Source of the DNA: a virus
DNA: 64,000 nt
Strand: one strand, 5' to 3'
IMG/VR virus record: IMGVR_UViG_3300013116_000108
Span: 140,101 to 204,100 of that record
In this document: piece by piece, positions 14,426 through 45,200 of the stretch
Position numbering within the stretch: the stretch's first letter is position 1
Layout: every line of letters begins with the position of its first letter
The notes under the pieces: model-generated
What the model was told of the DNA's origin: nothing
The model's database searches: none
Seen by the model: the letters and a program-made list of their open reading frames with translations, nothing else
Program-made: the position numbers and the translations under genes

Positions 14426-14938
14426 CTAGGCACATAATGTTTTAACTAAATCTGAATTTCTTGTAAAAAATTCTTCAAAGTCTGATATGCGCCAGTTAGA
14501 GCCTGTAGTGTTTGACCAATAGTCGATGTAGTTTTTTGCTTTTGATTTGTGTCTAGATTCGATTGCGATAAATTTGCCTACTTGATTGAATTTCATTATT
14601 AATATATTGAAGTCGCCTGTTTCTGCTACATCCATTAGTTGTGATATCCACTCTTCTAACATTGGGATAGGTTCTGGTTGTAATAGTCTGTGAAATGGGA
14701 ATTGTTTATAAAACTTACATTCCGCATTAAGTTTAGGAAAACTTTGTCCGGGAACAATATCACCCTTAAAGGCTCTTACTTGCCCTTCATGAAGTATTTC
14801 CATTCTTGCTTTATTAGACCCGCCCACGTAAGCACCGGATCCTGGAGCTCTTATAAACGATTCACCGTATAGTCCGGACAAGAATTTTGCGACATCTCGT
14901 TCCCAACCTGATCCTTTTGCTTTTTGTGGGCTTGGCAT
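14426..14938 (-). CDS. PD-(D/E)XK endonuclease or resolvase-like protein
   Basis: The 170-residue protein opens with GSGWERDVAKFLSGLYG, then RAPGSGAYVGG, KGDIV and NAECKFYKQ. The order Glu, Asp, Glu-x-Lys fits the PD-(D/E)XK nuclease fold found in phage resolvases and repair nucleases. It lies at the 3' end of a minus-strand run that includes gp46/gp47, which fits recombination or DNA processing. No clear ribosome-binding site precedes the ATG; an AT-rich 20-bp palindrome (14951-14970) does. Confidence 0.65.
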   Translation of the reverse strand: MPSPQKAKGSGWERDVAKFLSGLYGESFIRAPGSGAYVGGSNKARMEILHEGQVRAFKGDIVPGQSFPKLNAECKFYKQFPFHRLLQPEPIPMLEEWISQLMDVAETGDFNILIMKFNQVGKFIAIESRHKSKAKNYIDYWSNTTGSNWRISDFEEFFTRNSDLVKTLCA

Positions 14939-14976: not shown

Positions 14977-15156
14977 TTACATAGCGTTCTTTTTTTCTTG
15001 TATTTCTGCTCTACGTGACTTACCTAGTTTTGCTAATTCACCTAGTGCCTTACGAGCTCTAGTTGCCGCCGCCTTGTTTCCTTTTTCGTCAAACTTTGCC
15101 GCTTCTTCTACATAAGACTCATATGCTTGTGTTATTTGTTCATGTAATGTTGACAT
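14977..15156 (-). CDS. Histone H1-like (Hc1-type) DNA-binding protein
   Basis: The ATG at 15156 is preceded by AAAGGAGAT, so I choose it over an upstream ATG at 15186; the product is 59 residues. The core GNKAAATRARKALGELAKL followed by GKSRRAEIQEKKN matches the N-terminal helical pattern of bacterial Hc1 histone-like proteins, which has the form GNKAAAQRVR...KLEKVAK. It likely binds DNA non-specifically and could compact or shield phage or host DNA. It is the penultimate protein gene of the gp47-gp46 run. Confidence 0.6.
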   Translation of the reverse strand: MSTLHEQITQAYESYVEEAAKFDEKGNKAAATRARKALGELAKLGKSRRAEIQEKKNAM

Positions 15157-15176
15157 TACTATCTCCTTTATATAAA

Positions 15177-15192
15177 GGCTGTACATACAGCC
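15177..15192. repeat. Short hairpin before the H1-like gene
   Basis: GGCTGTA and TACAGCC are perfect 7-bp arms with a two-base spacer. On the minus strand only three T follow after CC. It could partly terminate the upstream operon or bind a regulator. Confidence 0.4.
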
Positions 15193-15216
15193 ATTGTTAT
15201 TTAATGTTATAGGTAC

Positions 15217-15780
15217 CTACGACAGCGATTTCTGAACTATTTCTTTAATCTCGTCCCACGAGTTGAAACAATCTAACTGAAATTGCCATCTACTATCAGG
15301 AGAATAATTAACGCCGTGGCGATGTCCACCAGCATTAATAAATGTTATTTTTGTATAATTGTGATCGTATAATAATTCGTCGTTTTCGTTATACCATTGA
15401 ATTCTCTGAGGAAATGATAATGGAATTATTAATCCAGCAGGCCTAAAATGGTCTTGATGTATATCAACTTGTGTAGCAGTTTCTTGAAAATTAGTTCTTA
15501 CTAGTTGGAATCCTGCCTGTCCACTACCGGGCATACTTTCATCTTTTTCAAAGTTAAATTTTAATCCAAATTTTTCAAAATACCTAACCCAATAATCTAC
15601 AATAGGTTCTTTTAAAATTGCTGGATTATAAACAACTTCTAACCCTAACGGTATACCGTGTTTACTATGATACATTTCAAATTCATTATCATACTTGTCG
15701 TACAAATACGAAAACTCATCTATGTTGTATCCTATAGGAGTTTCTATTACAAAATTATCTTTGGTTCGTTCAGTGTACAA
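15217..15780 (-). CDS. Fe(II)/2-oxoglutarate oxygenase-like protein
   Basis: The start is a TTG at 15780, since an in-frame stop lies just upstream and no ATG occurs before residue 37; the product is 187 residues. It has a beta-rich cupin-like half with DIHQDHF (His108, Asp110), GGHRHGV (His155) and Arg164. That is the HxD...H triad plus a 2-oxoglutarate-binding Arg of 2OG-Fe(II) hydroxylases. The gene overlaps the radical SAM gene by 34 bases and ends the four-gene operon. The substrate is unknown; hydroxylation of the operon's product is a guess. Confidence 0.55.
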   Translation of the reverse strand: MYTERTKDNFVIETPIGYNIDEFSYLYDKYDNEFEMYHSKHGIPLGLEVVYNPAILKEPIVDYWVRYFEKFGLKFNFEKDESMPGSGQAGFQLVRTNFQETATQVDIHQDHFRPAGLIIPLSFPQRIQWYNENDELLYDHNYTKITFINAGGHRHGVNYSPDSRWQFQLDCFNSWDEIKEIVQKSLS

Positions 15781-17603
15781 GTTAATGTCTGCCTTATTTT
15801 AAAGTTATCGCTGACTCTATCACTTCCTTCTAGAAGCATATGAGCAGTAGTTGATGTAGCGCCATTTAATGTTGGCGTAAATTCTATTGTTGTTTTTCTT
15901 CTTACATCATGTATAAAGTCATAGTTAAATGTTTTAGTAATTGGATATTCAACATCATAATCAAATAGTCTAGCATCGCAATACTTAATAAGTTCTGTTA
16001 AGATGTCTTTATCAATGCTGTATTGCTCGAGAAATGTTTTTGCTTCAGCATAAAACTCATCTCGTTTTTCTGTTAAGTTTTCTCTGTAGCCTAAACTTTG
16101 ACTTGCTAATCCAAATACATAATCGTCTATTCTTCCTTTTGCTTTATCAAAATGTTTTCTAATTAAACCGTTACTGTTAATAACATAATTGTACCAGTCG
16201 TTATAAAATTCTTTTTTAGATACAATATTTTCTCTATCTAAATAATCTGCGGCATCACGTAAAAAATTAAATTCGTGTCCTGTTCTTGTAGTCCATGTCC
16301 ATTCCCAGATATGTTTTAAGTCATCTTCCGATAGCCATTTTGTAGAAACTACAAGTTCAATATCTTCTTTTGTTTCTTCGTTTAGTACTCCAGGAAAAGG
16401 TTTACGAATAGTTTTAAATCCAAACTCTTCTCTACTTTTTCTGCTACCTAATTCAGCATTTGGTAATAATGCTAAAGGATATAGATATGTTGTTAATTCT
16501 TGATAATTTGTAATTTCTAAATATGTGTCTTTCCAACTATCTACTGTTTCTCCGGGATTACCTACAATAAGTTCACAGTCAAATGGCAAACCTAATTCAG
16601 CACAACGTTTAGCAAAATATTCATAATCGTTACTATCCATATTATCACGTTTTATAAGTTCTAATGCTAATGGTGTTAGTGTTTGTAAACTCATAATAAA
16701 ACTTTTAATAAGTCCGGCATCATACATTTTCTTTGCTATTTGTAAAATGTGTTCGTTGGCATTTTTTGCCCAGTTAACAAAGAATGTTTTAGGATAACCG
16801 TATTTCTTTTTTGTAGCGATAATCATATCAGCAATAGCATTATCTCTATCTTTTAAAATACCAAAGTTAGCATCAACACTATACAAGAATCCTATTTTAT
16901 TTTTACCCGCATATTCTATTTCTGCTTCTAATCTGTTAATGTCGTGATTAACTAGTTTACTATATGTAAGTCCTCCCCAATCACAAAATGAACAAGCATA
17001 AGGACATCCTCTGTTTGTTTCAAACAGCATAGCATGATGTGATTTTATCTTAGGCATTGAGCCTGACAAATAAGGACTTGGTAATTTACTTAAATCACGT
17101 TGTCTAGTTACTCTTTTATTATCTGCTACATTATTAGTCCAATGTGTTCCAAAGTTAACAGCAGTATTAGGTTGTGTGTCAATGTATTCTTTATTTGGAT
17201 TTAGTAATATGTTTTTAAATATTTCTTCTCCTTCTTGGAAAACAACAACGTCAACATACTTGTGACCGTTCCACCATTCATGTTTGCTGTCTTGCGGAAC
17301 TTGTGGACCACCGTAAATAATCATACACTCTGGCCAACGTTTTTTAATTTTTTCTGCTAGTTGGTTAGTAAAATTTTCATTCCAAATGTAAACACTAAAT
17401 CCAAATATAAAAGGATCTACTATTTCGTTTACTATTTCGTCAATGTCTTTCTTTTCATAATAAAGACCTGCTAATTGATAATTGTTTTTAACTTGTTCAT
17501 CTAATTCAGCATAAGTCCATAACCCGGCAACACTATACGGCAAGAATTTATGATTGCCAGGGTTAATAGTCATACTAAAGTTTGCTAGATAAACATTTTT
17601 CAT
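15747..17603 (-). CDS. Cobalamin-type radical SAM enzyme (TsrM-like)
   Basis: The 618-residue protein has an N-terminal Rossmann-like domain (FIFGFSVYIWNE, IIYGGPQVPQD) as in B12-binding radical SAM enzymes, without the DxHxxG motif. ETNRGCPYACSFCDWGG supplies the CxxxCxxC cluster ligands at 200, 204 and 207. DANFGILKDRD and ELIVGNPGET follow in the TIM-barrel part. CDWG plus DANFGI resembles the group that includes the tryptophan methyltransferase TsrM. It probably methylates or rearranges an unactivated carbon. It overlaps its upstream neighbour by 4 bases and its downstream one by 34. Confidence 0.75.
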   Translation of the reverse strand: MKNVYLANFSMTINPGNHKFLPYSVAGLWTYAELDEQVKNNYQLAGLYYEKKDIDEIVNEIVDPFIFGFSVYIWNENFTNQLAEKIKKRWPECMIIYGGPQVPQDSKHEWWNGHKYVDVVVFQEGEEIFKNILLNPNKEYIDTQPNTAVNFGTHWTNNVADNKRVTRQRDLSKLPSPYLSGSMPKIKSHHAMLFETNRGCPYACSFCDWGGLTYSKLVNHDINRLEAEIEYAGKNKIGFLYSVDANFGILKDRDNAIADMIIATKKKYGYPKTFFVNWAKNANEHILQIAKKMYDAGLIKSFIMSLQTLTPLALELIKRDNMDSNDYEYFAKRCAELGLPFDCELIVGNPGETVDSWKDTYLEITNYQELTTYLYPLALLPNAELGSRKSREEFGFKTIRKPFPGVLNEETKEDIELVVSTKWLSEDDLKHIWEWTWTTRTGHEFNFLRDAADYLDRENIVSKKEFYNDWYNYVINSNGLIRKHFDKAKGRIDDYVFGLASQSLGYRENLTEKRDEFYAEAKTFLEQYSIDKDILTELIKYCDARLFDYDVEYPITKTFNYDFIHDVRRKTTIEFTPTLNGATSTTAHMLLEGSDRVSDNFKIRQTLTCTLNEPKIIL

Positions 17604-18214
17604 TTTGCCTTAAATATCCTCAGGGAATGATAGTGTTGATGTGTTGTAACTAAACTAGGCCAAGGTCCAATACATTCCACCTCAGTTAAAAATTGTTGTT
17701 TGTTCCAACCGGATTCTTCCATGTAATTATAGTCTTCCATATTTGGTGTTGTTATAACTAATATACCATCTTCATTTAAGCATTTAGAAATATTTTCGGC
17801 AGGTGCTGAACTTAAATGTCCTTTTGTAAACAATCCACTTGCTAATATAATATCGTATTTCTTAGGCAATGGTTGTTTTACAATATCAATAATACTGACA
17901 TTTCTATAATGCTCTTCTGCTTTTTTTATAAACTGTTCAGTTAGATCATATCCGTCTACATTAGAATACCCAGCCTGCCATAGTATTTCTCCACCGGGGC
18001 CTGGTCCACAACCTAAATCAGCAATCTCAATTTCCCATTGCTTTGGGTAGTTTTTTATTACATAATCAGTTGTTTTAACTGGTCCCAACCAGCCTGCTTC
18101 TTCGCATATATCTTTGGTGTACGTTTCCCAATGTTCATAAAGTTTTCTTTGTTCTTGTTTGTTGTCAAATCCATTATTGTAACTGTCGCCTAAATTTTTA
18201 TTGAGATTGCTCAT
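17600..18214 (-). CDS. SAM-dependent methyltransferase
   Basis: The start at 18214 overlaps the stop of the adenylating enzyme as TAATG, giving 204 residues; an ATG 15 bases upstream is possible. IADLGCGPGPGGEIL is a class I methyltransferase motif I, with YDIILASGLFTKGHLSSAP and LNEDGILVITTPN as motifs IV and V-VI. It is similar in design to small-molecule methyltransferases. It is embedded in the four-gene operon, overlapping both neighbours, so it probably acts on the same pathway intermediate. Confidence 0.75.
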   Translation of the reverse strand: MSNLNKNLGDSYNNGFDNKQEQRKLYEHWETYTKDICEEAGWLGPVKTTDYVIKNYPKQWEIEIADLGCGPGPGGEILWQAGYSNVDGYDLTEQFIKKAEEHYRNVSIIDIVKQPLPKKYDIILASGLFTKGHLSSAPAENISKCLNEDGILVITTPNMEDYNYMEESGWNKQQFLTEVECIGPWPSLVTTHQHYHSLRIFKAK

Positions 18215-19626
18215 TATTTTTTTATCCAATCTGGGTTATCAATTAGTGTGTTATGTATATTTACTCTACTTACTTTAGGAATACACGTTGCTTGGCGTAA
18301 TATTGCGACTGTGCTTACTAAACTTGTGTATTTTACAGGCTGTTTAAATGGTTGCATTTTATCTTTACACCATTCTTGTAATTCTTGAGGAGAAACATCA
18401 CCATTGTATATACAAGCCGGTACAAAGTGTAATTTTTCGTCAGGTTGTGGATAAACATAAACCTCTTTAACACCTGGGTGTTGTGAAATAATATGCTCAA
18501 TTTCAAATGGATATACTTTACCGCCACCTCTTACAATTATAAGTTCATTTGATCTTCCTTTTAATATCCAGTTACCTTCTTCGTTTATTTCAGCAATATC
18601 TCCTGTGTCCCACCAATCACCGTCCGGTGTCATAGGACCTCTAAATTCAATAGTGCTATTTTCTGTTGACAGTCTGTATTCAGCACCGGCATTTACAAGA
18701 CACTCAATTGGCTTGCCTATTGTATCAAAATTGTTACTATAATTAACAAGTGTCATGCCTGTTGCGGCATCACCATATCCACATATCCAATTACTATGGC
18801 CAAAGAACTTTTCAAATTCTTCTTTTTGCCCATCAATAAGTGCGGCACCACTATACTCAAATACTTCGATACTGTGTCCACCGTTGTCACCTTTGTCAAT
18901 TACTTTTTGCCATGCTAGTGGAAAGCCTGCTAACCAAGTAGGTTTAACCCATTTAGCCGCCTCGGCATATTCTTCTTGCTCGTATATAAGATGGCAATGC
19001 CCACCTTTTGCTATTGTTGTAAATGTAACTTCTTGTCCCCAGCCAATGTAAGGACCCATAGAATTAATTGTTCTGTTTGTTTCTGGACTACGATACCATT
19101 TGTTTCCACGTTCACGATAATAATGTGTAACGTCTTGACTTGTGCCATAGTTGTTTTCATCTAGCTCGTAAGGTACAGGATAACTTTTAGTCCAGCCGTA
19201 TGGATGACTAGTTCCACTACTATAATAAAGCATTATTTCTTTGTCAAGAACTGTACTTTTTTCATAATGTAAATGTTCTAAATCAACAGTACCATCTAAG
19301 TTAACATAAACAATAGCATTAGATTTGTTAGCATCTAATCTAAATTTCCAGTCACCCTCTTCACCGTTCTTATATGCTTGTTTTAAATCTTCACCCCATG
19401 GTAAAGTTGTCGCACACATATCTAAAGCCGCGGCAAATAGATACAAATATGTATGAACAGAGTTAATACCTACTACGCTTATTCTGTGACCAGCATGGTA
19501 TCCTTGTTCTTTGTACCAAGCATTAATCTTGTGTATCTCTTTAATAAATTCGTTGTATGTTAATTTTGTATTTTTATCACTCAGAGCTATATTCTCCGAT
19601 GGTACTAATAAGTGATACGGCCTCAT
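18214..19626 (-). CDS. ANL-superfamily adenylating enzyme (acyl-CoA synthetase/NRPS A-domain-like)
   Basis: The 470-residue protein has the family's motifs: YYSSGTSHPYGWTK (A3, near 134-147), YGDAATG (A5, near 284) and DTGDIAEINEEGNW then KGRSNELIIVRGGGKVYPFE (A7-A8, near 340-375). The A10 region reads IPKVSRVNI where active enzymes have PKxxxGKI, so the catalytic Lys appears replaced by Asn. The enzyme could activate a carboxylate or only perform thioester chemistry. It heads the four-gene operon, ten bases downstream of gp46. Confidence 0.72.
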   Translation of the reverse strand: MRPYHLLVPSENIALSDKNTKLTYNEFIKEIHKINAWYKEQGYHAGHRISVVGINSVHTYLYLFAAALDMCATTLPWGEDLKQAYKNGEEGDWKFRLDANKSNAIVYVNLDGTVDLEHLHYEKSTVLDKEIMLYYSSGTSHPYGWTKSYPVPYELDENNYGTSQDVTHYYRERGNKWYRSPETNRTINSMGPYIGWGQEVTFTTIAKGGHCHLIYEQEEYAEAAKWVKPTWLAGFPLAWQKVIDKGDNGGHSIEVFEYSGAALIDGQKEEFEKFFGHSNWICGYGDAATGMTLVNYSNNFDTIGKPIECLVNAGAEYRLSTENSTIEFRGPMTPDGDWWDTGDIAEINEEGNWILKGRSNELIIVRGGGKVYPFEIEHIISQHPGVKEVYVYPQPDEKLHFVPACIYNGDVSPQELQEWCKDKMQPFKQPVKYTSLVSTVAILRQATCIPKVSRVNIHNTLIDNPDWIKK

Positions 19627-19636
19627 CTATGCTCCT

Positions 19637-21400
19637 TTAATTGATTTTAACGTCGTTGTTGTAACTGGTAAATCCGTTTTCTTTAGTTACTGTTAGAACA
19701 TTATTTACCCTACCCGCTAATTCATCTCTATGAGAAATAAGCCAAATAGATTTGTGGCGTTCTCTAGAAATCTTTTTAAGGACTGCTAGAGAACTTTCCA
19801 CACCTGAGGTGTCCATGCCTGAGTCAACTAACTCGTCGATGAATAACAAGTTTATAGGTTGGTATAAGTTTTCCCAAACATCACGGAATGACCAACTCAA
19901 TGCTAGAATTAATCTATTCCTTTCACCTCTGGACAAGTTATCAAAGTCAAGATCACGTCCTAATTCTGTAATCTCGATTGATAAATCATTTTGAAAAACT
20001 ACTTTATGAGGTAGTCCAATTTTGTCAAGATAATATGTTAAACGTTTATTTAAAAATGCTAAGTTTTGTTCAATAATACGTTTACGAACAAAACTATCTT
20101 TACTTGTTAATAATTTGTATAAAAACTCTTGATGTTCTTTTTTGAAATTTAAATCTTCTAATAGTTCAAATGATACTTCTTGGATTCCTGTTTCTTCCAT
20201 TTCAGTTATTTGTTCATTATAAGTGTTTTCTTCTGCTTGTTTATTTGTTAACTGATTTTCTAAAGTAGTTAACGTACTCTTATGATTGTGTGCTTCAGTT
20301 AAGTCAGAATAAAATGTTTCTGGCTTATCGCCAACGGGTTCTCTTAATGCTATATTATCTGTTACTTTTAATCCAGCATCAACTATTTCCTGTGCTATAT
20401 CCTCAACTTGCTTTTCGAGACTTGTTAATTTTTCTTCATATTCCTTTAAGTGTTTAATATCTTGGCCACAACTATCGCATGTATGATTTTTAACATGTTC
20501 TAAACTAGCAACAAGTTTGTCAGACTCCTTAACTAGTCTTTCTAGTTGTCGTTCGCTACTTGCTATGTCTGTTTCTACATCTTTTTGTTGCCTTTTGCGG
20601 TCTCTAAAGTCGTTTAACAGTTTGTGTTGTTCAAGTTCTTTGTCTATATCAACGTCACCTAAATCAATAATTGCTTTTTCTAATTTTTGTATTTGCTCAT
20701 CTTTATTATCCTCCCACATCTTACTTCGACGTTTGAGGTTTTCTATTTGTTCTTTAATATGTTCGTTTGCTTTTTCGACACCTTGTATTCTAAATTCTTC
20801 TTCTTTAGCCCGGTCTCGATTAACTTTCATTTCTTCTCTAAGTCGTTCTGCTTTTTCACTTAGTAAAGTAATACCCAACAGTTGCTCAATAATAGCACGT
20901 TGGTCATTATTTTTTAAACTTAAAAAAGGTTCTGTGTAAGTGTTAAGCGCCACAACATGTTTGAACATCTCGTGACCCATTTCAAGTAATCGATTTATTT
21001 CGTGTTGTGTTTCTCTGCTATCACCTTGAGCATTATCATCTGCTTCTTGTTCTTGATTATCTACATAAAATTTTAATAAGTTAGGCTTACGTCCACGTTC
21101 AATTTTATACTTTTTTCCCTTCTTTTCAAACTCTAAACAAACAAGCATATTCTTGCCATTTGTTTTATTAATTAAATTATCAGCCCTAATTTTAGTAAGT
21201 GCTTGTCCATACAAGGCATAACTTAAAGCATTAATAATTGTAGTTTTACCAGTACCGTTTCTAGCACCTGTGTCGTCTCCACCTAAGTCGAGGTTTTCGC
21301 CTAATACTAATGTTAAATCCTCTCTGTTAAAATCAATCGCTTGTGTGCTGTTACCCACACTCATAAAATTCTTGACTGTGATACTATTCAAATTAAACAT
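19637..21400 (-). CDS. 46: Recombination nuclease ATPase gp46 (Rad50-like)
   Basis: The 587-residue protein has a Walker A GARNGTGKTT near residue 45, a long coiled-coil with the zinc-hook CDSCGQD near residue 308, the signature LSRGERNRLILAL, and Walker B INLLFIDEL. With gp47 it forms the nuclease that resects ends for recombination-dependent replication and helps degrade host DNA. It overlaps the gp47 stop by one base, and the accessory biosynthesis operon follows directly. Confidence 0.95.
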   Translation of the reverse strand: MFNLNSITVKNFMSVGNSTQAIDFNREDLTLVLGENLDLGGDDTGARNGTGKTTIINALSYALYGQALTKIRADNLINKTNGKNMLVCLEFEKKGKKYKIERGRKPNLLKFYVDNQEQEADDNAQGDSRETQHEINRLLEMGHEMFKHVVALNTYTEPFLSLKNNDQRAIIEQLLGITLLSEKAERLREEMKVNRDRAKEEEFRIQGVEKANEHIKEQIENLKRRSKMWEDNKDEQIQKLEKAIIDLGDVDIDKELEQHKLLNDFRDRKRQQKDVETDIASSERQLERLVKESDKLVASLEHVKNHTCDSCGQDIKHLKEYEEKLTSLEKQVEDIAQEIVDAGLKVTDNIALREPVGDKPETFYSDLTEAHNHKSTLTTLENQLTNKQAEENTYNEQITEMEETGIQEVSFELLEDLNFKKEHQEFLYKLLTSKDSFVRKRIIEQNLAFLNKRLTYYLDKIGLPHKVVFQNDLSIEITELGRDLDFDNLSRGERNRLILALSWSFRDVWENLYQPINLLFIDELVDSGMDTSGVESSLAVLKKISRERHKSIWLISHRDELAGRVNNVLTVTKENGFTSYNNDVKIN

Positions 21401-22416
21401 TAAAGATTCCTGTAAATTTCCGTTAAGAGATTTTTATCATAAAAATCTGTTTCGACTGCTTCGAGTTGACTGTATACAATACTGTCTACAGATTCAAAAT
21501 TAATTTCAACTGTTTCATCTACTTGAGTGTCTTCTAATTTTTGTTGTATTAAACTTAGTTCTCGTATGGGATATTTTTCCATAAAGTTTTCTCGTATGAA
21601 ATTTGCTTCTTCGTAACTAATTTCAATATCAAGCATAACCCTAGCATACGTTTTAGGTAATAGATACTTGTCTGGATCGTCAAGCAGTTGTCCTAGTTTT
21701 AGTGTTTTGTACTTAGGAGCATCAGGCCATGCTATATACTCAGGCTGTCCTCCCCACTCTAGTATCATTACACCTCTATCATCATCCCAAGCATCTGAAT
21801 AATTATGTGGGAAAGCGTTACCAATATATGTAATGTTTCCTCTTGTTTGTCGTTTGTGAAAGTGACCACTAAAAGCATGTTCTACTCCGCCAAAATCGTC
21901 GTCGTGTAGTTCGCCTATGTCGGGCATTTGTACCATAGCATTCATATAGAAATGAGGCAACTCTAAATGCCCAAACATATATTTGGCTTTAATTTTACTA
22001 ATACCCTTGTGTTCATCGCCTACTAACCAAGGTACAATAGCAACGTTACCGTCAACAGTAACATCATTGTAAATTTTAATATTGGGATAATTTTTAATCC
22101 ATGCTATAGAATTAAAGTCACGTTTATCACGATAGTATTCATCATGATTACCCGGAATGAATACAATTTTTTCAAATGCTTTGCTTAAAGCATCAATGGC
22201 TTTAATACTATAGTTAAGTGTAGCAACATTAATTGCCGCTCTATGATGATGCCAGTCGCCAAGAAATAAGCAAGTGTCACATTCTTGTTCTTTACCTTGT
22301 TTGATCACCCATTCAACAAACTCTAAACAATCGTCATTAAACAATGTAGAATTAGACTTGTTACCAAAGTGAATGTCTGTAAAGGCTATCGCCTTTTTAA
22401 ATAAATTATCTGCCAT
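21400..22416 (-). CDS. 47: Recombination nuclease gp47 (Mre11-like)
   Basis: The 338-residue protein carries metallophosphoesterase motifs in order: DIHFG, GDWHHHR, GNHDEYY and GHFHKRQ. Size and partner fit T4 gp47. It is translated in step with gp46. The upstream gap holds a possible sigma70 promoter, which suits early expression. The ATG sits in GGTATAATGG, so a -10-like hexamer overlaps the start codon. Confidence 0.95.
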   Translation of the reverse strand: MADNLFKKAIAFTDIHFGNKSNSTLFNDDCLEFVEWVIKQGKEQECDTCLFLGDWHHHRAAINVATLNYSIKAIDALSKAFEKIVFIPGNHDEYYRDKRDFNSIAWIKNYPNIKIYNDVTVDGNVAIVPWLVGDEHKGISKIKAKYMFGHLELPHFYMNAMVQMPDIGELHDDDFGGVEHAFSGHFHKRQTRGNITYIGNAFPHNYSDAWDDDRGVMILEWGGQPEYIAWPDAPKYKTLKLGQLLDDPDKYLLPKTYARVMLDIEISYEEANFIRENFMEKYPIRELSLIQQKLEDTQVDETVEINFESVDSIVYSQLEAVETDFYDKNLLTEIYRNL

Positions 22417-29804: not shown

Positions 29805-30353
29805 TTATTCTCCTTTTACGGTAATCCCTAATTGAGTCATTTTGCTTGTTGCTTGTTCTACTGAACCAATAGAAGCACATGCTTCTTTAATTACTGTAAC
29901 ATTGTAACCTAGTTTAACAGCATCTGTGGCGCTCCATGCCACACAATAATCATATGCTACACCAACAAAGTCTAAATCTGTAATACCGAGTTGTTGTAGA
30001 TATCCGTGTAAGCCTGTTGTTGTAGTATGATCGTTTTCGTAGAAAGCACTATAACTATCTATGTGTTGTCTAAACCCTTTACGAACAATTAATTGTGCTT
30101 TGTGTGTATCTAATTCGTCTACACATTCAGCACCTTTTGTATTTGCTACACAATGAACTGGCCATGTTGTTTCAAAACTACTGTGGTTTTTTGGATGCCA
30201 ATCTTGTGTAATAATAATGTGCGAATATTGATCTTGTAATTCATTTATCTTTGGTATAACGTTCTCAGCGCCTTCAACAGGTAAACTTCCCCAACTCATA
30301 AAGTCGTTTTGAACATCAACTATTATTAATGCTTTATTTTCCATACATGTCAT
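29805..30353 (-). CDS. Nicotinamidase (PncA-type cysteine hydrolase)
   Basis: The ATG at 30353 is preceded by AGGTGG and gives 182 residues; a longer upstream frame lacks support. ALIIVDVQNDF holds the catalytic Asp, ITQDWHPKNH the metal-binding Asp and His, WPVHCV a further His, VRKGF the catalytic Lys, and VAYDYCV the nucleophilic Cys. The family converts nicotinamide to nicotinate in NAD salvage. Its 5' end overlaps the SDR gene. A phage could use it to rebuild NAD during replication or after NAD-depleting defences; that role is inference. Confidence 0.88.
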   Translation of the reverse strand: MTCMENKALIIVDVQNDFMSWGSLPVEGAENVIPKINELQDQYSHIIITQDWHPKNHSSFETTWPVHCVANTKGAECVDELDTHKAQLIVRKGFRQHIDSYSAFYENDHTTTTGLHGYLQQLGITDLDFVGVAYDYCVAWSATDAVKLGYNVTVIKEACASIGSVEQATSKMTQLGITVKGE

Positions 30354-31077
30354 AATACCACCTAGCATGAATATTTTGTAGAGAAAAATATTCATCGTCC
30401 ATCCATTCAGGGTTACTTTTTAATATGTTTACTTCAATACAACTTGATGTTTCTGCTAATACCCATTCCGCACTTTGTTTTATAATTTCGTCTGGGTGTA
30501 ATACATATGTTTTATCAATATATGGTCGTTCACCTTCTAGTTGTTCACCATCTGTTGTGCTAACATTAACAAACAAACTACTTACTATATTGTTGTGTTC
30601 ATTATCACCATAAAACTTTCTATACAATCCTCGCAATATATCTTTTGCTTTTGTAAAACTGTTCCAATAAGGAATATCATATAAATCAGCAGTTGAACCT
30701 ATTGCTACAATTCGTAGATGCTCTGAATTATTTCCTAGTTTATATAATGCAGGAGTTATGTTAACAAATGTAGTTACATTGCTATGAAATATGCTGTCAT
30801 CTAAGCCGTCACCGTCATTATCTATAACAGGATGATTCTCATCTTCAAATCTAAACTCTCCAGGTAAGTGTATATACACAACTAATCTATCTGATATTTC
30901 ACTAAAGAAATCTTCAGGCACAGGCGACATTAAGTCACATGTCATGTGTGTATATTCTAATCCATCAACAGGAGTTTCACTACGACTAATGCCGTAAATT
31001 TTTCCGTAATTTTTTAGGTGGTGGGCATATGCTAACCCAATATCTGATCTTATGCCAGCAATAACAAATGATATCAT
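30334..31077 (-). CDS. SDR-like Rossmann oxidoreductase
   Basis: The 247-residue protein begins ISFVIAGIRSDIGLAYAHHL, an SDR-type dinucleotide-binding start with a variant of TGxxxGIG, then GKIYGISRSE. LRIVAIGSTADLY gives the catalytic Ser strand. The expected YxxxK is not intact: the region reads PYWNSFTKAKD, with no Tyr four residues before either Lys. It may therefore be a divergent or non-redox NAD(P)-binding protein. It lies between nicotinamidase and radical SAM genes, overlapping the former. Confidence 0.65.
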   Translation of the reverse strand: MISFVIAGIRSDIGLAYAHHLKNYGKIYGISRSETPVDGLEYTHMTCDLMSPVPEDFFSEISDRLVVYIHLPGEFRFEDENHPVIDNDGDGLDDSIFHSNVTTFVNITPALYKLGNNSEHLRIVAIGSTADLYDIPYWNSFTKAKDILRGLYRKFYGDNEHNNIVSSLFVNVSTTDGEQLEGERPYIDKTYVLHPDEIIKQSAEWVLAETSSCIEVNILKSNPEWMDDEYFSLQNIHARWYYDMYGK

Positions 31078-35700: not shown

Positions 35701-36299
35701 CGTATTCAGACTTGTATAGAGAATGGATTTTAGATGTTACAGATAAAATTATAAAGCCAACAGAACCTACAGCAGAAAACTTGAGAGCGTCATTTAGCAC
35801 TATTGAAAATTCTAAAAGTATTTCAGATACAATAATATATCACTCAGCAAAATTTAAACCATTGTTTGGCGATAAAGCAGACACTAGTTTACAAGCAATC
35901 TTTAAAGTTGTAAAACTACCAGGCGCTGGCATTAGTGACTCTGAAGTTAAAGCATCTATTATTGATGCTATTAATGACTACTTTAATGTTTCAAATTGGG
36001 ACTTTGGTGATACTTTTTACTTCTCAGAATTAAGTGCTTTCTTACATAATACGTTAGCAAATAAAATAAGTTCTGTTGTTATTGTACCAAAAAGCACAAC
36101 ACAAGTATTTGGTAGTTTATTTCAAATCCGCAGTAATTACGATGAAATTTTAATCAGTGGAGCAACAGTTGACGATGTAGAAATAATTGATAGTATAACA
36201 GCAACTAAGATACAAGCAGGTGGTTCTATATCGAGTTTAGATACTACTACAAACACAACAGCAAGTGCTGTTACAACTAGCGGGAGCACCTCGTACTAA
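32772..36299 (+). CDS. 6: Baseplate wedge protein gp6, enlarged
   Basis: The 1175-residue protein begins with the gp6/GPJ fold: FPEDFNDFVESSEYIALIDL, IAFFGQSLAYRQDLNARENF, and ERRDSILRLASLLSYKPKR. The C-terminus has YFNVSNWDFGDTFYFSELSA as in wedge proteins. T4 gp6 is 660 residues, so about 500 residues are inserted, mainly in the middle. gp6 dimers form the ring that links wedges. AGGA precedes the ATG; the stop overlaps the next gene as TAATG. Confidence 0.88.
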   Translation: MATSTRQTNLFVSEDWKKVYQTFKSADFESYDFETLRSTMISYLRKQFPEDFNDFVESSEYIALIDLIAFFGQSLAYRQDLNARENFLETAERRDSILRLASLLSYKPKRNTTSIGLLKIVSISTTEDVFDSNNNNLSGKTIFWDDSVNSDYEEQYNTIINAALSSAQRIGKPANEVTTGSIKTQEYELNLLANTQPLLPFTAVTNGADTKFELVNGTISGESYIYEKSPIPGSTYNFLYRSDGKGNASANTGFFTMFKQGTLGQIDFNLTSGLPNITYSIDKANINNTDVWLYELEDDGTVGDEWTQVPAISGSNVIYNSLSLSNRKLFAVESMVDDKIKLVFADGVFADIPKGTFRCYFRQSAGTTYSIKSTDINNVELNFNYISRTNQEENLSIGLTLQQNINTANRNETLTNVKKLAPQAYYTQNRMVNGEDYNIYPLTQFTSIIKSKAVNRAASGISRFLDVKDTTGKFSSTNIFSDDGVFYKEYTTKKDTFSFLNDNEIIDVIKNTLEPNLASKPMYHFYLDKFVSQAFANKVTWVKVSSTSNTTTGYFKDATGEAIQIGTGVSNVNKYLTLNSMIKFIPETGKHFMSNGSHMDGTDTDHIGATMQTWSSIKLIDTNGLGGLGNGLKSAGVGAVTLNELVPTGATVERVFPKWVSDIPTSLENTIKTNIKEYKDFGLRFDHITSTWSIITSDNLAVDKGYSDDNAGNTSGTKIDASWLVQFTTDGVQYTIKTRQLDYYFASKDETRFYFDKAIKIYDSVTGTTIKDRCTVLKVNNRPTSNKPLEEDYALDIIDMVTEVDGYKDNTKVKVTLGDADNDSVTDNPEMFEKIVGVDDPTGLAKNRKFVFFKQFYDYDNIERYQPIGQKVICYDYKTMREIHSNKGLFPEGKVFYATTENKFTTSFKDATGTLKLTPAANPGEQFGGNLGSEVQAYKVYIGRDNLKFQYKHNAPNNRRIDPSPSNLIDMYILTQSYSDLYREWILDVTDKIIKPTEPTAENLRASFSTIENSKSISDTIIYHSAKFKPLFGDKADTSLQAIFKVVKLPGAGISDSEVKASIIDAINDYFNVSNWDFGDTFYFSELSAFLHNTLANKISSVVIVPKSTTQVFGSLFQIRSNYDEILISGATVDDVEIIDSITATKIQAGGSISSLDTTTNTTASAVTTSGSTSY

Positions 36300-39200
36300 T
36301 GGCTAAAAGAAAGACAAGTTCGTTTTTACCTAAGGCGTACCAAACAGAAAAAAATAAAAAGTTTTTAAGTGGAACATTAGACCAGTTAATGAACAGTTCC
36401 AACCTTACAAGGATGGACGGATATATTGGTCGTAGGTATTCGCCAAGTTATAAAACTACAGATAATTATTTGGCATCTTCTGGATTAAGAAGTAATTATC
36501 AATTAGAACCTGCTATTGTACTTAAAAAAGATTCAAACATCGCAAGTGATAACGATGTTGGTTCAATTGTAACATACGACGACCTGCTCCACAAACTAAA
36601 AAATAATAGTGTTAATACAACTGATCACAATAAACTTTTTAATCAAGAATTTTATAACTGGTCAGGGTTTATTAATTTTGACACTCTTGTAAACTACGGA
36701 AGTTATTACTGGCTTAAAGATGGGCCTAATGCTGTTACTGTAACAGGTAAAGATATTAAAACATCAGGAGCATGGTCAACAAAATACGATTCTGTAAACA
36801 ACGAATATACAGTCTCAGAAATAAAAGGCAAGAACCCTACAATTTACTTACGTCGGGGCGGCAATTATACGTTTACAGCAGATCAAACAGCAGAATTTTA
36901 TATACAAACAGAGCCAGGGTCAATCACTGGAATTGAGAAGGCATCTCCTACAAAAAGCACTAGAGAAATTTATGGTGTTGAAAACAACGGCAGTAAGAAT
37001 ATAACATTTACAGTTCCGCCAATTGATGCTCAGTCATGGTTTGATACAGATTTATCTCTTTTACAAGATGTTAATTTAGTAAGTAATTTACCATGGAACA
37101 AAGTACAGGGACGAGATGTCGACAACCTTATTTCATTAGATAGTGGTATTGACAATCAACGTGTATTAGATGGCAAGACTATTATATTCATACAAGATTC
37201 TGATTCTGCAACAGATAACACTAACTGGACAACTACTGGTATAGATTATACTCAAGCACCTTATAAAGACACAGGATTTTCTGTAAACAACGGACAAGTT
37301 GCTACAGTAGATAGACAAGGTGTCTATCAAATTAGTATTGTTAGTAATAAAATTGTATTATCAAAAGTTGCTAATATAACTTTTACTGATAAAGTTTATG
37401 TTACAGAAGGATCAACATACGCCGGAAGGCACTTCTACAAAGCAGTAGAAACTAATCACATTACAGTTATTCCTATACTAACAGCAAAACTAGATACACT
37501 TTACTATCAGCATGCCACAGATAAAACAGCATATGGAACAATTAAAATAGTTAGTGACGTTGCTCAATCAATCGAGCCGGCTGACTTTTTAGGGAAAAAA
37601 ACTTATACCGCACCTAACGGTGTTGTGTTTACTAACGGACTAAAAATAACATTTGATACAACTATAACAGAAACAAAATATAAAAATAAGTCGTTTTATA
37701 TAGAAGGTGTAGGCGACAGCATACACCTAGTAGATACTACATTAACTATTTCTGAAACAGGCTCTGAAACTAAAGATTATATTGTAATGGCGAGAGGTGC
37801 CAAAGATATGAATGCCTGGAGTAGAGCAAACAAATGGTTTCATAAGGATGTTATTACAGCGGCCGCAACGTATAACAATGAAATAATAAGTGTTGACGAT
37901 AGTTTAAGAGCAGTAAGACCTATCATTGAATACAATGCTGGGTTACATTTATACAACCACGGTACTACTGGTATTAGTGGTGTTTCGCTAATTGATACAA
38001 CAACTACAGACGCACTATCTAATATAAATGGCACAAGTGGTTCCTATGTTGATAGCACAGAATTAAAAGCCTTTGACAGAATTATTTTTACAAAAGATAA
38101 TGACTTACAAACTAGGAAAACTATTTGGACTGTTGGTTGGAGAGATATTAACGGTGATTCAACTGTTGATTTCTTAACACTTGGAAATGATGACGCATCA
38201 GAAGTTACTACAGGCAGTAGTGTTGTTCTTAACAAAGGTCTAACAGGTAAAGGAAAAACATACCACTGGGACGGTACTAATTGGATCGCTTCACAAACTA
38301 AAACAAAAATAAATCAATACCCTATTTTTGAATTATATGATAGCAACGGTGTTAGTATTAATGATACATCAACATATCCGTCGAGTGACTTTTTAGGAAA
38401 TAGTTTATTTAAGTATAGTACAGGAACTGGAACAAACGATACAGAATTAGGGTTTCCGTTAAAATACAGAACATTTAATAATATAGGTGATATTTTATTT
38501 GATAACACCTACGTCAACGAAACATTTAATTATAAGAAAACAACAGGTGTAACAGAAATAAGCACAGCAACCACGTTAGCAAAAATAACACATCCTTATA
38601 GCGGAGCAGTGACTTATTCAAATGGTTGGACTAAAGGTATCCAAAAAAGTAGACAGTATCAGCAAGTAGAATATACAGTCGAAGATGTAACTGTTAAGTC
38701 ATACAACTTAGGAGCAAATCCAGATGTATCGACAACAGCATTGCCAACAACATTTGTTTATATTAATAACAAACGTACAAAGAATTTTACAATAGCATTA
38801 GAAGAAGGATTTTATAACTGTAAAATAGAAGATACTCTTTCATTAGGCGATTCTATTACTATTCAGTTTTACAGTCAAACAACTTCTAAAATAGGATACT
38901 ATGTGGTTCCTAAGAATTTAGAAAGCAACGGACAAAATGAAAAGTTTGCTAATATTACTTTAGGACAATTACAAAATCACATTACCGCATTAATTGATAC
39001 TAATAAATTTTTTACAGGTTCGTTACAAGGAAGTAATAATTTAAGAGACTTATCCGGAGCAAAAGAGACAGAAGGACTAATAACACAGCACAGTTCACCA
39101 ATGATCCTTCCTATGATTTTTAGTGAGCACAGCAACGTAAACTATGTTAATTCGTTAAAGTTTGCTAATGCTGAATATGAAAAATTTAAATCTAAATTCT

Positions 39201-42200
39201 TAAATTCTTTAGAAACTTTAGACGGATTAGACTTAACAAATGTAAGTGAAACTGTTGATACTATCATGGAACATGTTAATGCTAATAAAAGTTCAACGTT
39301 TCCTTTTTATACGTCAGACATGGTTCCTTACGGAGCGGATGTAGAAATAACAACATACACTATTACTGACGATAGAGACAAAACATACGAGATTGACAGT
39401 ATATTTGACAATACACTTCCAAGTAATAGAGCTATATTGGTTTACTTAAATGATGTACAACTATACAATGACATCGACTATACATTTGAATCAACTAGTT
39501 CAAACATTAGGCTTATTAAAACAATAGCAATTGGCGACGTGTTAAAAATTGCCGACTACAATAACACACTAGGAAACTACGTTGCTCCTACACCGACTAA
39601 ACTGGGACTGTATCCAAAGTTTAAACCTGAAATAGTCAGCGACAACACTTACGCTGACACACAAACTATTATTATTGGGCACGACGGTAGTAGAACTATA
39701 GCATATGGCGATACTAGAGATAATGTTATATTAGAACTTGAAAAAAGAATTTACAATAATATTAAAACACATTATCAAGAAAACGTATTTGATATTAAAA
39801 AGTATACTCCAGGGCGTTGGAGAGAAACTGATACAACAGTAGCAGAAGTTAATGATATTTTAGAAGATGAGTTTTTACGTTGGACTACTAAACATAGAAT
39901 TAGTTATACTGATAACACATTCTTTGATGCTAACGATTCTAAAACTTGGAACTATAAAAACTTTACAGATAAACTAGACAAAAGTTTATTCAAGCAAAGC
40001 CACTGGAAGGGATTGTTTGTATATTATTACGATACTTATAAACCTCACACTAATGCTTGGGAAATGTTTGGTTGGACTGAAAAACCAACTTGGTGGGAAA
40101 CCAGGTATGGTGTAGCACCTTATACATCAGGCAACGAAGTATTATGGAATGATGTAAGAGACGGTCACCGATATACTAGTGCTACAGAATTTACAGCAAG
40201 TACTTTGTATAAAAGAGAAAACATATATTCAATGATGCCTGTAACAGAAAATGGAGAAATATGTTCTCCTATTGATTGCTTAACTACTAACGCAGGCGAT
40301 TTGTCACCAAGCCATTCATGGAAATACGGAGACGGTGCTCCGCCGGAAATTGCTTGGAAAAACTCTAGTAGTTACCCATTTAGTGTACAACATTTATTAT
40401 CACTAATTAGGCCAGCAGAATACTTTAGTCAACTGTTTAATAAAAGTCAAATAGTTAGAGGAGCATTAACTGATCAGTTAGTGCTAACATCAACTAACCA
40501 GCGTCAAACACCTTCGGATTTAAAAGTTGATACTTCTACTACAAGATACGAGGGCTGTGGAAACTATATTGCCGATTATTTACGTTGGTTAAATGTAGAT
40601 GTACAAACAAATTTAACAGACATACTTAAAAACTTAGATATTAAATTGGTACACAAATTAGAAGGCTATACAGATAAAAAACTTATTAAAGTATTAGCAG
40701 AACAAGTGTCGCCAACTAGTACAAGTAACTCTGTTTATGTACCAGATGAAGACTACGCTATCCATTTACATAAAACAGGCCCAATTAAAACTATACCATA
40801 CAGTGGTGTAATTATTCAAGGCAATGCTAGTGGATATACTGTATTTGGTTATAATTTAAATAATCCAAGATTTACTATTCACAAGCCTATAGAAAACGGC
40901 AACTTTAAAATACATGATGTTAACGACGATCGTGTTGTAGAATACGAAGATTATTCTACAGAAGAGGAATCTATTCCTTACGGAACTTCGTTTGATACAA
41001 AACAAGAAGTAGCAAATTTCTTGTTCTCTTACCAAAAATATTTGACAAACAGTGGTTACGATTTTGATAATAGAATGGAAGACTTTGGTACACAAAAAAT
41101 TGTAGCAAACTGGACGATGAGTGTTAAGGAATTTGTTCATTGGTCTGGGCAAGGCTGGACACCAGGGTCAGTTATTACAATAAGCCCTAGTTCACTAAGA
41201 GTTAGATGCTTAACGTCAATGGGTGTTGCTGATACTTTGTCTAACAGTCAAGCCGAGACAAATGTATTAAACGCTAACTATGAACCACTAAGACCGGGTT
41301 CGTATAAAATGAACAGGCAAGACAACGAATTTGAATTAACACCAAATGAAATTGCCGGAGGCATTTATTTTGTTAATGCTAAACTTGTTGAGTATGAACA
41401 TGTTTTAGTGTTTAACAATGTGACAAGATTTAATGACGTAATATACCAGCCTGGATTAGGCAACAGACAATATAGACTAAGAATAGTAGGAAATAAAACA
41501 GGTGGCTGGGATGGTAGTTTATCAGCAGAAGGATTTATTTACAATGATGGCAACGTTCCTGGTTGGGTAGAAAATACAAACTATTCGCGAGGTGACATTG
41601 TTAAATTTAGAGACAGGTTATATACAAGTTCAGTATCACATACAAGCTCAAATAAATTTGTATATGAAAACTGGACACAAACTGATTCATTTAAAATAGG
41701 ATTACTTCCTAACTTTGATACATTAGGTAAAAACTTTGAAAGTTTTTACGACATTAATGCTGTTAACTTAGAAAGCGAAACAGACAAGTATGGCAAGGGT
41801 TCTATTGGCTATCAAAATAGAGAATACTTCAATCAAATTGGCATGGATGATGTTAGCCAAGTTAAGTTTTATCAAGGAATGTTACAAGAAAAAGGTACAA
41901 CAAATGCTGTTAACAAATTAATTAGAAGCAAGTTTGATAAAATTAGTAGTGACATTAATTTTTATGAAGAGTGGGCTATTAGAAATGCTGAATACGGAGC
42001 AACTGACTTAAACTCTAGAGTTGAAATACAACTAAACGAAGAAGGATTTATAGATAATCCACAACCTATTACAACACTTAACACAACACAAGAAAAGTCT
42101 AGTGTTGACAGCAAGACTGAATATCTAACAAGTGAGTTATTTAAAGCACCAGCAGATATAAGTTATGACTGGGTTCCAGTAAGGAAAAATTATGTTGATG

Positions 42201-45200
42201 GACATAAGGACAATGTGTTTTATGACGACTTGTATCCAAATGCTGGATACCCTAAATTAACAGATGCTGATGCTACATTATTTTACAACAAAGACACAGA
42301 TACATTAAAAGATTTAACACCTGACATGAATGTAGGTTATACCCTTTGGGTCGCAGAAGATGAAACTGGCGATTGGGATATGAAATATTTAGATACTACT
42401 TCTATAGAAGTTACTAACTGTGACGGTGGAACAACAGGTGCTACTTATACTTGGACAACCGCAGATGATCATTCATTACAAATAGGTGATATTGTTGTTG
42501 TTAAAGGGTTCCACACAGATGATACTAAATTACTACGAAATGGTGTATATACTATTCAAACAGTACCAACTACATCAACATTTACAACAATGGGCGGTGG
42601 TGAATCAGGTAAAGATTCAGAAGCAGGTTCTAGTGTATTATTAAAATTTAAAAGTATTAGATTTAAAGACGGTGAGCAAATTACAGCACCTAAACTAGGA
42701 TGGCAAACAAACGACAAGTTTTATGTAGACAAAGATGAAGCAGGTTATTGGTTTGTAGCAAAGAAAAATACAAAGTTTACTCAGCAACAATCACTTACAC
42801 CATTACTTGGAGTTGCTAATGAAGAGTTTGGCGATGCTATTTGTTCTGACATGGATAATCAATGGCTAGTTGTTGGACAAAAATCACAAAATAGAATACA
42901 AATATATACTCCAAATCCTGCAGAATTATCACAAAATGCCGTAATCAATAATAGTGTTAATGGAGTTTTAGAATTAGGTGCCAGCGTTAGTACAGGCGCT
43001 CCGGTTTGGACAAAGCCACCTTCAACAACAGACTATAAGCAAGTACAAGGAATGTTTAGAGAAGATTTCCTAGGAAAATATGAAGAATGGGACAACGGCA
43101 AGCGTTGGATAGTAGTTGGAGCACCAGGCACTGATAGCAATAAAGGTGCTGTATTATTTTATTATTACGATTCAAAAAGTGGCACATTTTTGCCAGGAAC
43201 TATCGACCAGCCAACAGGATTAACAACAAGTGCTAAGTTTGGTAGTGTTGTAAAAATGAGTGCTAATGAATTATGGTGTGCTGTTTCGGCACCAGGTGAT
43301 AAAAAAGTATTTTTATACAATAGAATGGCCGTGTCAGGAGAAAGCACTTACAACACCACAGGCGACGGTAGTACAACAGAGTTTGTATTAGACATTTGGT
43401 GGAGCAAAATAACATCAGCCTCAGAATTATATATTCGCTTAGATTCAACTGAGCAAATGGCTACTAGAGATTTTACATACAACGCAAACACTAGAACAAT
43501 TACATTTACTAGTGCTCCTGCGAATGGCACAGCAATCAGTATATCATACTTAGGCGGTTGGAGACTCGCAAAAACATTTACAGGAACAACTGCTGACTAC
43601 GGTGCGAGTATTAGTTTAGATAGTAACGGTCGACATTTAGTTATTGGTGCTCCTAATACAACAACTGTAGGATCTGTTACTACAACAAACATGGGCGCCG
43701 CTGAAATTAAAACAAGGCACTGGCAATGTTTCACTGGCGATGGAACAACAAAGGCATTTACAGTTGACGTGTCAGATCTAACTGGTGTTATTGTTTACCA
43801 AAACGGAACACCAATTGATAGTATCGGTTCAGATAGTGCTGTGTTATGGACAGTATCCGGCAATACGCTTACGTTTACATCAGCACCGCAATCAAATGAT
43901 GAAATAGCAATATGGACAAATGAATGGCTATCATTACAAACAATTATACCAAGTGGCAATGGCAGACAAGAAAATGGACAATTTGGATCATCAGCAATAG
44001 AAATAGATGAAGCAGGTCAAACAATTTATGTTGGTGTTCCCGAAGCAGACGGTGTTATAGAAAATTCAGGATTAATACAAGTATTTGAAAGAAATCAAAA
44101 GATAAACCAAGGCAAACTAATTTTATCTTCAGAGAAAGAAGGATTTTCATCATACAACGCAGGTGAAAGTTTTTATATAAACGGGTATAAAGTTACAGCA
44201 TCAGGAACTACTATTGAGTCAATATCAACAGATATTAATAATGCTAATATACCGGGCATTACATCAACAGTTACAGGTGATAGCCCTAATCAAATTTTAA
44301 GTGTTAGCCATAGTTCTGGAGTATTAAATACTATCGATATCACCCCAGGAGTAACAGGCACTATATACAAAGACATTGGGTTGAAACCTTTTACTACACC
44401 AACAGACATTACACTGAATCAAGAAATTACTAGTGGACATAAGTTTGGCGAAGTTATTAGAGTTAGCAGAAATAATGACTTATTAGTTGTTGGTTGCCCA
44501 AGCGGGTCAACTCGTGTTTACACAACAATAGACAACAAAAAAACATTGTTTGATGGCAGTGGCACTAGATTTACTGTTCAAACATATTATACAGGTTCGG
44601 CTCACGTATTCCAAAAATTAGGAAAGAATTGGGTTGAAGCAGATAGTTTGTACACAAACAATACATCTATTAATGATAAATTTGGTTCTAGTATAGCAAT
44701 TAGTAATGATACAGTTTATGTTGGAGCACCATGGGAAGATGATGGCAATACACAGAACACAGGTAAAATTATAAGATACGGCAAGTCAGGTGAGTTGTTT
44801 AGCATCGACGAAAGAGAAACAGCATTAGTTGATATTGACAGGATTAATAAAGCATTCTTATATAATAAAAGTACAAACAATATTTTAGCATACTTAGATT
44901 ATATTGATCCTATTAAAGGTAAAATATTAGGTGAAGCAGAACAAAACATTGATTATAAAACATCATGGGATCCTGCTGTATATAATTATAGCACCGGAGT
45001 ACATCAAGTCAACAATGGAGATGATCCGTGGATTGCTGAATCATTTATTGGAAAGATTTGGTGGGATTTAAGTGAACTTAAATTTATTAATTACGAACAA
45101 GGTGATGCAGATTACAAATCATTATTTTGGGGAGGATTATTTCCTGGAAGTAAAATAGGAATTTATCAATGGGTCGCATCAGATGTGCCTCCTGTTAACT

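Follow-up and report, generated by a model that had tools for sequence, protein, structure and literature searches.

We analysed a stretch of 64,000 nucleotides (the window), i.e., positions 140101-204100 in a virus record of 204.1 kb, with regard to a cassette of four minus-strand open reading frames (ORFs) at 15217-19626. In their reading direction, they encode an enzyme of the ANL family (ANL), a class I S-adenosylmethionine (SAM) methyltransferase (MT), a cobalamin-dependent radical SAM methylase (rSAM) and a fourth protein (OX), putatively an oxygenase of the Fe(II)/2-oxoglutarate (2OG) type (Table 1). Ten bases lie between the end of gp46 (19637) and the ATG of ANL (19626), which is preceded by a ribosome-binding sequence (AAAGGAG). 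The ANL stop and the MT ATG share one base (18214), the MT stop and the rSAM ATG overlap by four (ATGA, 17600-17603), and the rSAM stop and the TTG start of OX overlap by 34 bases (15747-15780). Coordinates, strand, all three overlaps and the gap after gp46 exactly reproduce a preceding sequence-only reading of this DNA.

Table 1. Features of the cassette and its flanks, in window coordinates (aa, amino acids).
Feature	Position	Strand	Size; basis
ANL (AMP-binding) enzyme	18214..19626	-	470 aa; Pfam profiles and motif reading
Class I SAM methyltransferase (MT), METTL27/OvoM-like	17600..18214	-	204 aa; Pfam profiles
Cobalamin-dependent radical SAM methylase (rSAM)	15747..17603	-	618 aa; Pfam, NCBIfam and PDB matches
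Fourth gene (OX), putative Fe(II)/2OG-type oxygenase	15217..15780	-	187 aa; invariant residue pattern alone
Terminator-like hairpin directly 3' of OX	15177..15192	-	consensus match only
gp46, SbcC-like recombination subunit; left neighbour, cargo-site edge	19637..21400	-	
gp47, SbcD-like subunit	21400..22416	-	
Hc1/histone H1-like protein; right edge of cargo site	14977..15186	-	
PDDEXK / RusA-like nuclease	14426..14938	-	

IMG/VR was scanned with rSAM, ANL, MT and OX as queries. The cassette is found in eight records, i.e., the window and seven contigs, which form four lineages: the window with L001 (99.97% identical over 15 kb), L002, L003 with L004, L005 and L009 (no difference in the stretch they have in common), and L107. 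The order ANL-MT-rSAM-OX is the same in 8/8 ANL-carrying records as far as the contigs run (L107 ends inside rSAM, L005 near the rSAM end, L009 inside MT). Between lineages, the ratio of nonsynonymous to synonymous substitution rates (dN/dS) is 0.06-0.29 and mostly below 0.18, with no frame breaks; for comparison, gp46 and gp47 show 0.09 and 0.04 between the window and L002. The quartet is under purifying selection, and its arrangement is not chance because it recurs in four lineages under such selection. The sequence-only reading had asked whether the genes fail to co-occur in related phages or are unrelated proteins with decayed active sites. They stand together in every ANL record as far as the contigs run, and the cassette thus withstood this check. 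The public phage collection gave no record with OX and none with a closely similar ANL or rSAM.

The genomic position of the cassette varies. In the window, L001 and L002 it lies between gp46 and the Hc1-like gene, and in related large phages this interval (15187-19636 in the window) serves as a cargo site. Of 80 further loci in IMG/VR whose gp46 is 57-62% identical, none has the cassette at that site. Some phages have little or nothing there (the gp46 and Hc1 matches are about 23 bases apart in L197 and about 56 bases in L237 and L242), and the site is filled with other cargo in L196, L199, L200, L201, L204, L205 and L215, mostly radical SAM-like genes (by eye) with or without a short-chain dehydrogenase/reductase (SDR) gene. 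L003 and L107 carry the cassette after tRNA-Ala, downstream of nrdA, nrdB and glutaredoxin genes; a sequence TTGACA-17-TATACT stands upstream of the ANL start codon in L003 (by eye). At the DNA level, L003 and the window locus resemble each other in a single 4.4 kb block, which is 78% identical and bounded exactly by the cassette edges. Since the similarity stops at these edges, the cassette moves as a unit. No direct repeats of at least 9 bases flank it, such that nothing marks a site-specific insertion. With metabolic genes that selection conserves in phage genomes at varying positions, it qualifies as a phage auxiliary metabolic cassette.

Two ideas can be judged directly from these observations. 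A functional link to recombination, as its location may suggest, finds no support, i.e., the gp46 flank is a cargo site and the same cassette lies beside tRNA genes and nrdA/nrdB elsewhere. The varied cargo of the gp46-Hc1 interval would suit mere chance neighbours or decaying cargo genes, but co-occurrence in 8/8 records, joint presence at a second locus and low dN/dS make this very improbable and effectively exclude both chance proximity and decay.

That the cassette adjoins recombination genes in two lineages would also fit DNA or RNA hypermodification, i.e., a phage nucleobase on which the cassette would build or attach an acyl or methylated group against restriction. Phages are known to install carboxylate handles and to ligate these in an AMP-forming manner (CmoX/CmoY and carboxymethylcytosine; PMC12783734), and the genome holds QueD, QueE-like and QueC-like genes (L017:5674-7703 and L018:16272-16964). 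However, CmoY is an asparagine-synthetase homologue whereas the cassette ligase is an ANL enzyme; neither CmoA/CmoX homologues nor an amide ligase of the asparagine-synthetase type are among the four cassette genes, the rest of the genome not having been searched with those profiles. As a further candidate, 7-deazaguanine modification of DNA was rejected: Que genes are present, yet the TGT-family transglycosylase (PF01702) has no match in G000, the window's record, with 14/14 control genomes positive. Furthermore, the cassette also occupies an unrelated locus in other lineages, and we know of no TokK/CysS-type enzyme that acts on nucleic acids. We thus consider hypermodification unlikely.

Among the four proteins, rSAM matches PF04055 above the Pfam cut-off and the N-terminal B12-binding domain PF02310 with 31.5 bits against a cut-off of 32.1. 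Its best PDB match is TokK (E 1.3e-65), and CysS reaches E 5e-50, both aligned over the rSAM core. The best NCBIfam model is the KedN5 family NF033712 (residues 54-476, E 2.5e-80), for which 270.4 bits fail the curated membership cut-off of 700 bits. The cysteines of CxxxCxxC (C200, C204, C207) are invariant with TokK and CysS, DANFG and AKN are aligned as well, and W74 takes the position of TokK W76 and CysS W75, i.e., of the Trp on the lower face of cobalamin that is seen in the TokK and CysS structures (PMC12846815). As judged from these motifs, rSAM belongs to the cobalamin-dependent radical SAM methylases of TokK/CysS/KedN5 type, is full-length and has intact cofactor motifs. Its active site appears closer to TokK than to CysS at positions 277 and 375 and unlike both at 275.

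We also compared 158 rSAM relatives in a tree, which was built from the best matches of two separate scans and thus covers sampled sequences rather than the full phylogeny. With a support of 98, 77/78 virus-contig sequences fall on one side and 77/78 cellular ones on the other, together with TokK and CysS. The exceptions are L177 and L024, the latter on a contig of 7 kb assigned to a Bacillales bin; when both are left out, a second tree with 56 hand-chosen rows gives the same split (support 95). The 80 best-matching loci from about 85,000 genomes include no cellular relative above 36% identity to rSAM. The virus-side branch is present in dozens of phage contigs, and a known substrate was found for none of its members. 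The TokK/CysS-type rSAMs of the viral contigs L102-L181, set on a separate branch from the sampled cellular ones, mostly lack an ANL partner, and other phage contigs have an rSAM without any ANL match.

The surroundings of same-branch phage rSAMs elsewhere, i.e., nucleotide-sugar epimerase/dehydratase-, SGNH-hydrolase- and other radical SAM-like genes (by eye), would suit surface decoration, in which the cassette would tailor lipopolysaccharide, capsule or virion at an acyl group or a sugar. Glycosyltransferase-like genes downstream in the window (by eye) are in accordance with this. On the other hand, none of these genes shows a link to the cassette, and glycan methylation does not typically involve an ANL enzyme; we regard this explanation as improbable.

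MT matches PF13847, PF13489 and PF08241 above the Pfam cut-offs, carries the glycine-rich SAM-binding motif DLGCGPG and resembles METTL27 and OvoM. For OX, the pattern H108-Q-D110 ... H155 ... R164 is invariant across three lineages (residues picked by eye). It is the one expected of Fe(II)/2OG oxygenases, i.e., a metal triad plus a 2OG-binding Arg, and the label is a putative one. With regard to the double-stranded beta-helix fold of such oxygenases, the AlphaFold model of OX reaches a confidence (pLDDT) of 33 from an alignment of 3 or 4 rows, and the best Foldseek E-value for this unusable model, 0.29, is noise. The fourth gene had earlier been described as 2OG-oxygenase-like; no family match and no usable fold stand behind this description, which leaves the residue pattern as its sole support.

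ANL matches PF00501 (AMP-binding) and PF13193 (AMP-binding_C) above the Pfam gathering cut-offs, and its top PDB profile match, over nearly the full length, is the coronafacate ligase Cfl. The positions A7 D343, A8 R358 and A10 K451 are kept; K451 is invariant (PKVSR/SKISR), its match to the catalytic A10 Lys being read by eye from the motif. The loop at A3 reads SSGTSHPYGWTK for the window, L002 and L003, and TSGSTGLPK, the canonical form, for L107. Motif A5 (YGxTE) reads YGDAA in all copies of the four lineages, i.e., both Thr and Glu, which contact AMP and Mg in ANL enzymes, are Ala. With this A5 motif, ANL is not a standard acyl-CoA synthetase; we classify it as a divergent member of its family. 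The pocket is not interpretable from the AlphaFold model (pLDDT 35, alignment of 3 or 4 rows).

The loss of the A5 Thr and Glu would also suit a cassette in which rSAM and MT modify a host or phage protein and ANL has turned into a binding or regulatory protein. In accordance with this, relatives of rSAM include methylases that mature ribosomally synthesised and post-translationally modified peptides (weak NCBIfam matches). The conserved A7, A8 and A10 Lys argue against it, as does the missing space for a precursor peptide gene, i.e., the four genes overlap in the window and the block common to L003 holds nothing more. We deem such protein or peptide modification quite unlikely.

Several further ANL-related candidates were assessed. 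In 'phage' records of Listeria, Staphylococcus and Acinetobacter, the ANL matches are partial and weak and resemble ordinary host acyl-CoA ligases. A scan of 385 genomes from a single bacterial class, run without positive control, gave no ANL at E 1e-30. An ANL core protein of half length is encoded at G000:17042-17752 (L017) and L003:15254-15952, with 58% identity between the two phages; the copy in L003 lacks the C-terminal domain but has TSGSTGDPK and WGMTE as canonical motifs. Overlapping nicotinamidase and SDR-like genes lie at 29805-31077 of the window, and the same pair adjoins the cassette in L003. An EntA/EntB/EntE-type dihydroxybenzoate pathway, as could be composed from PncA, SDR and half-length ANL beside the cassette in L003, was dropped because the hydrolase is a nicotinamidase and the pair sits 10 kb off in the window. 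A phage gene similar to acyl carrier proteins (ACP) was rejected as a possible partner (G000:127264-127479, which equals L023:7264-7479, and L278:1480-1719): both distinct copies have Asp in place of the phosphopantetheine Ser, reading LGADDFD and LGSDDFT at the attachment site. In G007, the ACP-like gene adjoins IscU.

Taken together, we see roughly even chances that the cassette is an auxiliary metabolic set of large uncultured T4-like phages that activates a carboxylic acid and methylates a heteroatom as well as an unactivated carbon, in steps of the same kinds as those of CysF/CysS and TokK. ANL would activate the acid by forming an adenylate and then a thioester or amide. The METTL27-like MT would methylate a heteroatom, and rSAM would use host methylcobalamin to methylate a carbon that is not activated; as with CysS, this may be the new methoxy carbon. 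The fourth protein would probably hydroxylate or otherwise oxidise the substrate. This would yield an activated acyl group with methyl or alkoxy tailoring for use during infection. While the gene families (except that of the fourth protein), the intact cofactor motifs of rSAM, co-occurrence, selection and mobility are shown, we infer the joint pathway, its reaction order, the substrate, the use of the product and the benefit to the phage.

A number of observations weigh against such acid tailoring. The A5 Thr/Glu loss may mean that the Mg-ATP chemistry of ANL is altered or lost, and the A3 loop of the window's ANL is changed as well. No carrier protein competent for attachment was found, the phage ACP-like protein being without the attachment Ser. 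OX has no match in Pfam, PHROGs, NCBIfam or PDB, and no cellular quartet that would reveal the product was found. Finally, the positions of CysS Trp271 (gate/substrate) and His371 are Phe and Tyr (the latter as in TokK) in the phage rSAM; therefore an aromatic substrate is not implied.

With regard to the proposal of the sequence-only reading that the phage makes or modifies a small molecule, the enzyme families and their co-occurrence fit, while the making of a free small molecule finds no support. We tentatively entertain a wider possibility, which is less likely than not: with a methylase of the virus-side branch and an ANL enzyme of rebuilt active site, large phages may have a compact pathway of their own, separate from all known bacterial clusters, that builds a B12-radical-SAM-alkylated activated acid during infection, be it as a phage-specific metabolite or for a new kind of nucleic-acid or surface modification.

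The large terminase of the phage is nearest to that of Pseudomonas phage PA5oct and its relatives at about 52% identity, and we therefore consider it a large T4-like phage without close cultured relative. IscU is encoded in G007 and G008; G007, the record of L002 (a 122 kb contig), shows 13 radical SAM matches. A ferredoxin-NADP reductase-like gene is present in G000 and L003. It is plausible that IscU, the other radical SAM genes and this reductase-like gene provide iron-sulphur clusters and electrons. Side observations in these genomes are a permuted-type transfer-messenger RNA gene (L019:13993-14369, tag ANDNVFHEDFALAA), a phage-encoded TctA tricarboxylate transporter membrane protein (L022:6807-8246, E 1.1e-97) and a single ORF of 4342 aa within the structural genes (window 36299-49327).

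As a rule, a phage cargo gene contributes a single enzyme that boosts or redirects a pathway of the host. An acid activator linked to two different methylases and a probable oxygenase, intact and moving together, suggests that phages carry whole tailoring steps of their own. Comprising four genes in 4.4 kb, the cassette makes its product directly testable by heterologous expression. In accordance with the earlier statement that no phage system with this quartet is described, the literature searched gave no description of the four-gene set in a phage.

Regarding known systems, radical-SAM-rich, IscU-bearing large T4-like marine phages are reported, e.g., TARA_ERS488813_N000010 with 12 radical SAM genes (PMC5332604). 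Phages of this type are like G007 in their many radical SAM genes or IscU, while the four-gene set is not described in the passages of that source consulted. KedN5-family C-methyltransferases provide the best NCBIfam model for rSAM, which differs by staying, at 270 bits, under the 700-bit rule. Cfl and MenE or acyl-CoA synthetases belong, by sequence, to the same family as the phage ANL; the latter differs by YGDAA at A5, the altered A3, its length of 470 aa and the lack of a known carrier or partner. TokK methylates C6 of carbapenam. It shares the positions W74/W76, W209, N277 and Y375 with the phage rSAM, while its R280 is Phe in the latter and no beta-lactam genes were recognised near the cassette. 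CysS, to which the phage rSAM is about 29% identical over the fragment compared, methylates the methoxy carbon of pantetheine-thioester aminobenzoates after the O-methyltransferase CysF (PMC12846815, PMC7966384). This action on aryl acids held as thioesters bears out the earlier claim that these enzyme types are typical together in natural-product pathways (PMC12846815, PMC7966384). While the phage set consists of phage genes and comes with no non-ribosomal peptide synthetase, it is like CysS/CysF of cystobactamid biosynthesis in pairing a cobalamin-dependent radical SAM enzyme with a methyltransferase; in that system, the latter is an O-methyltransferase and both work on a thioester-held carboxylic acid (PMC12846815, PMC7966384).

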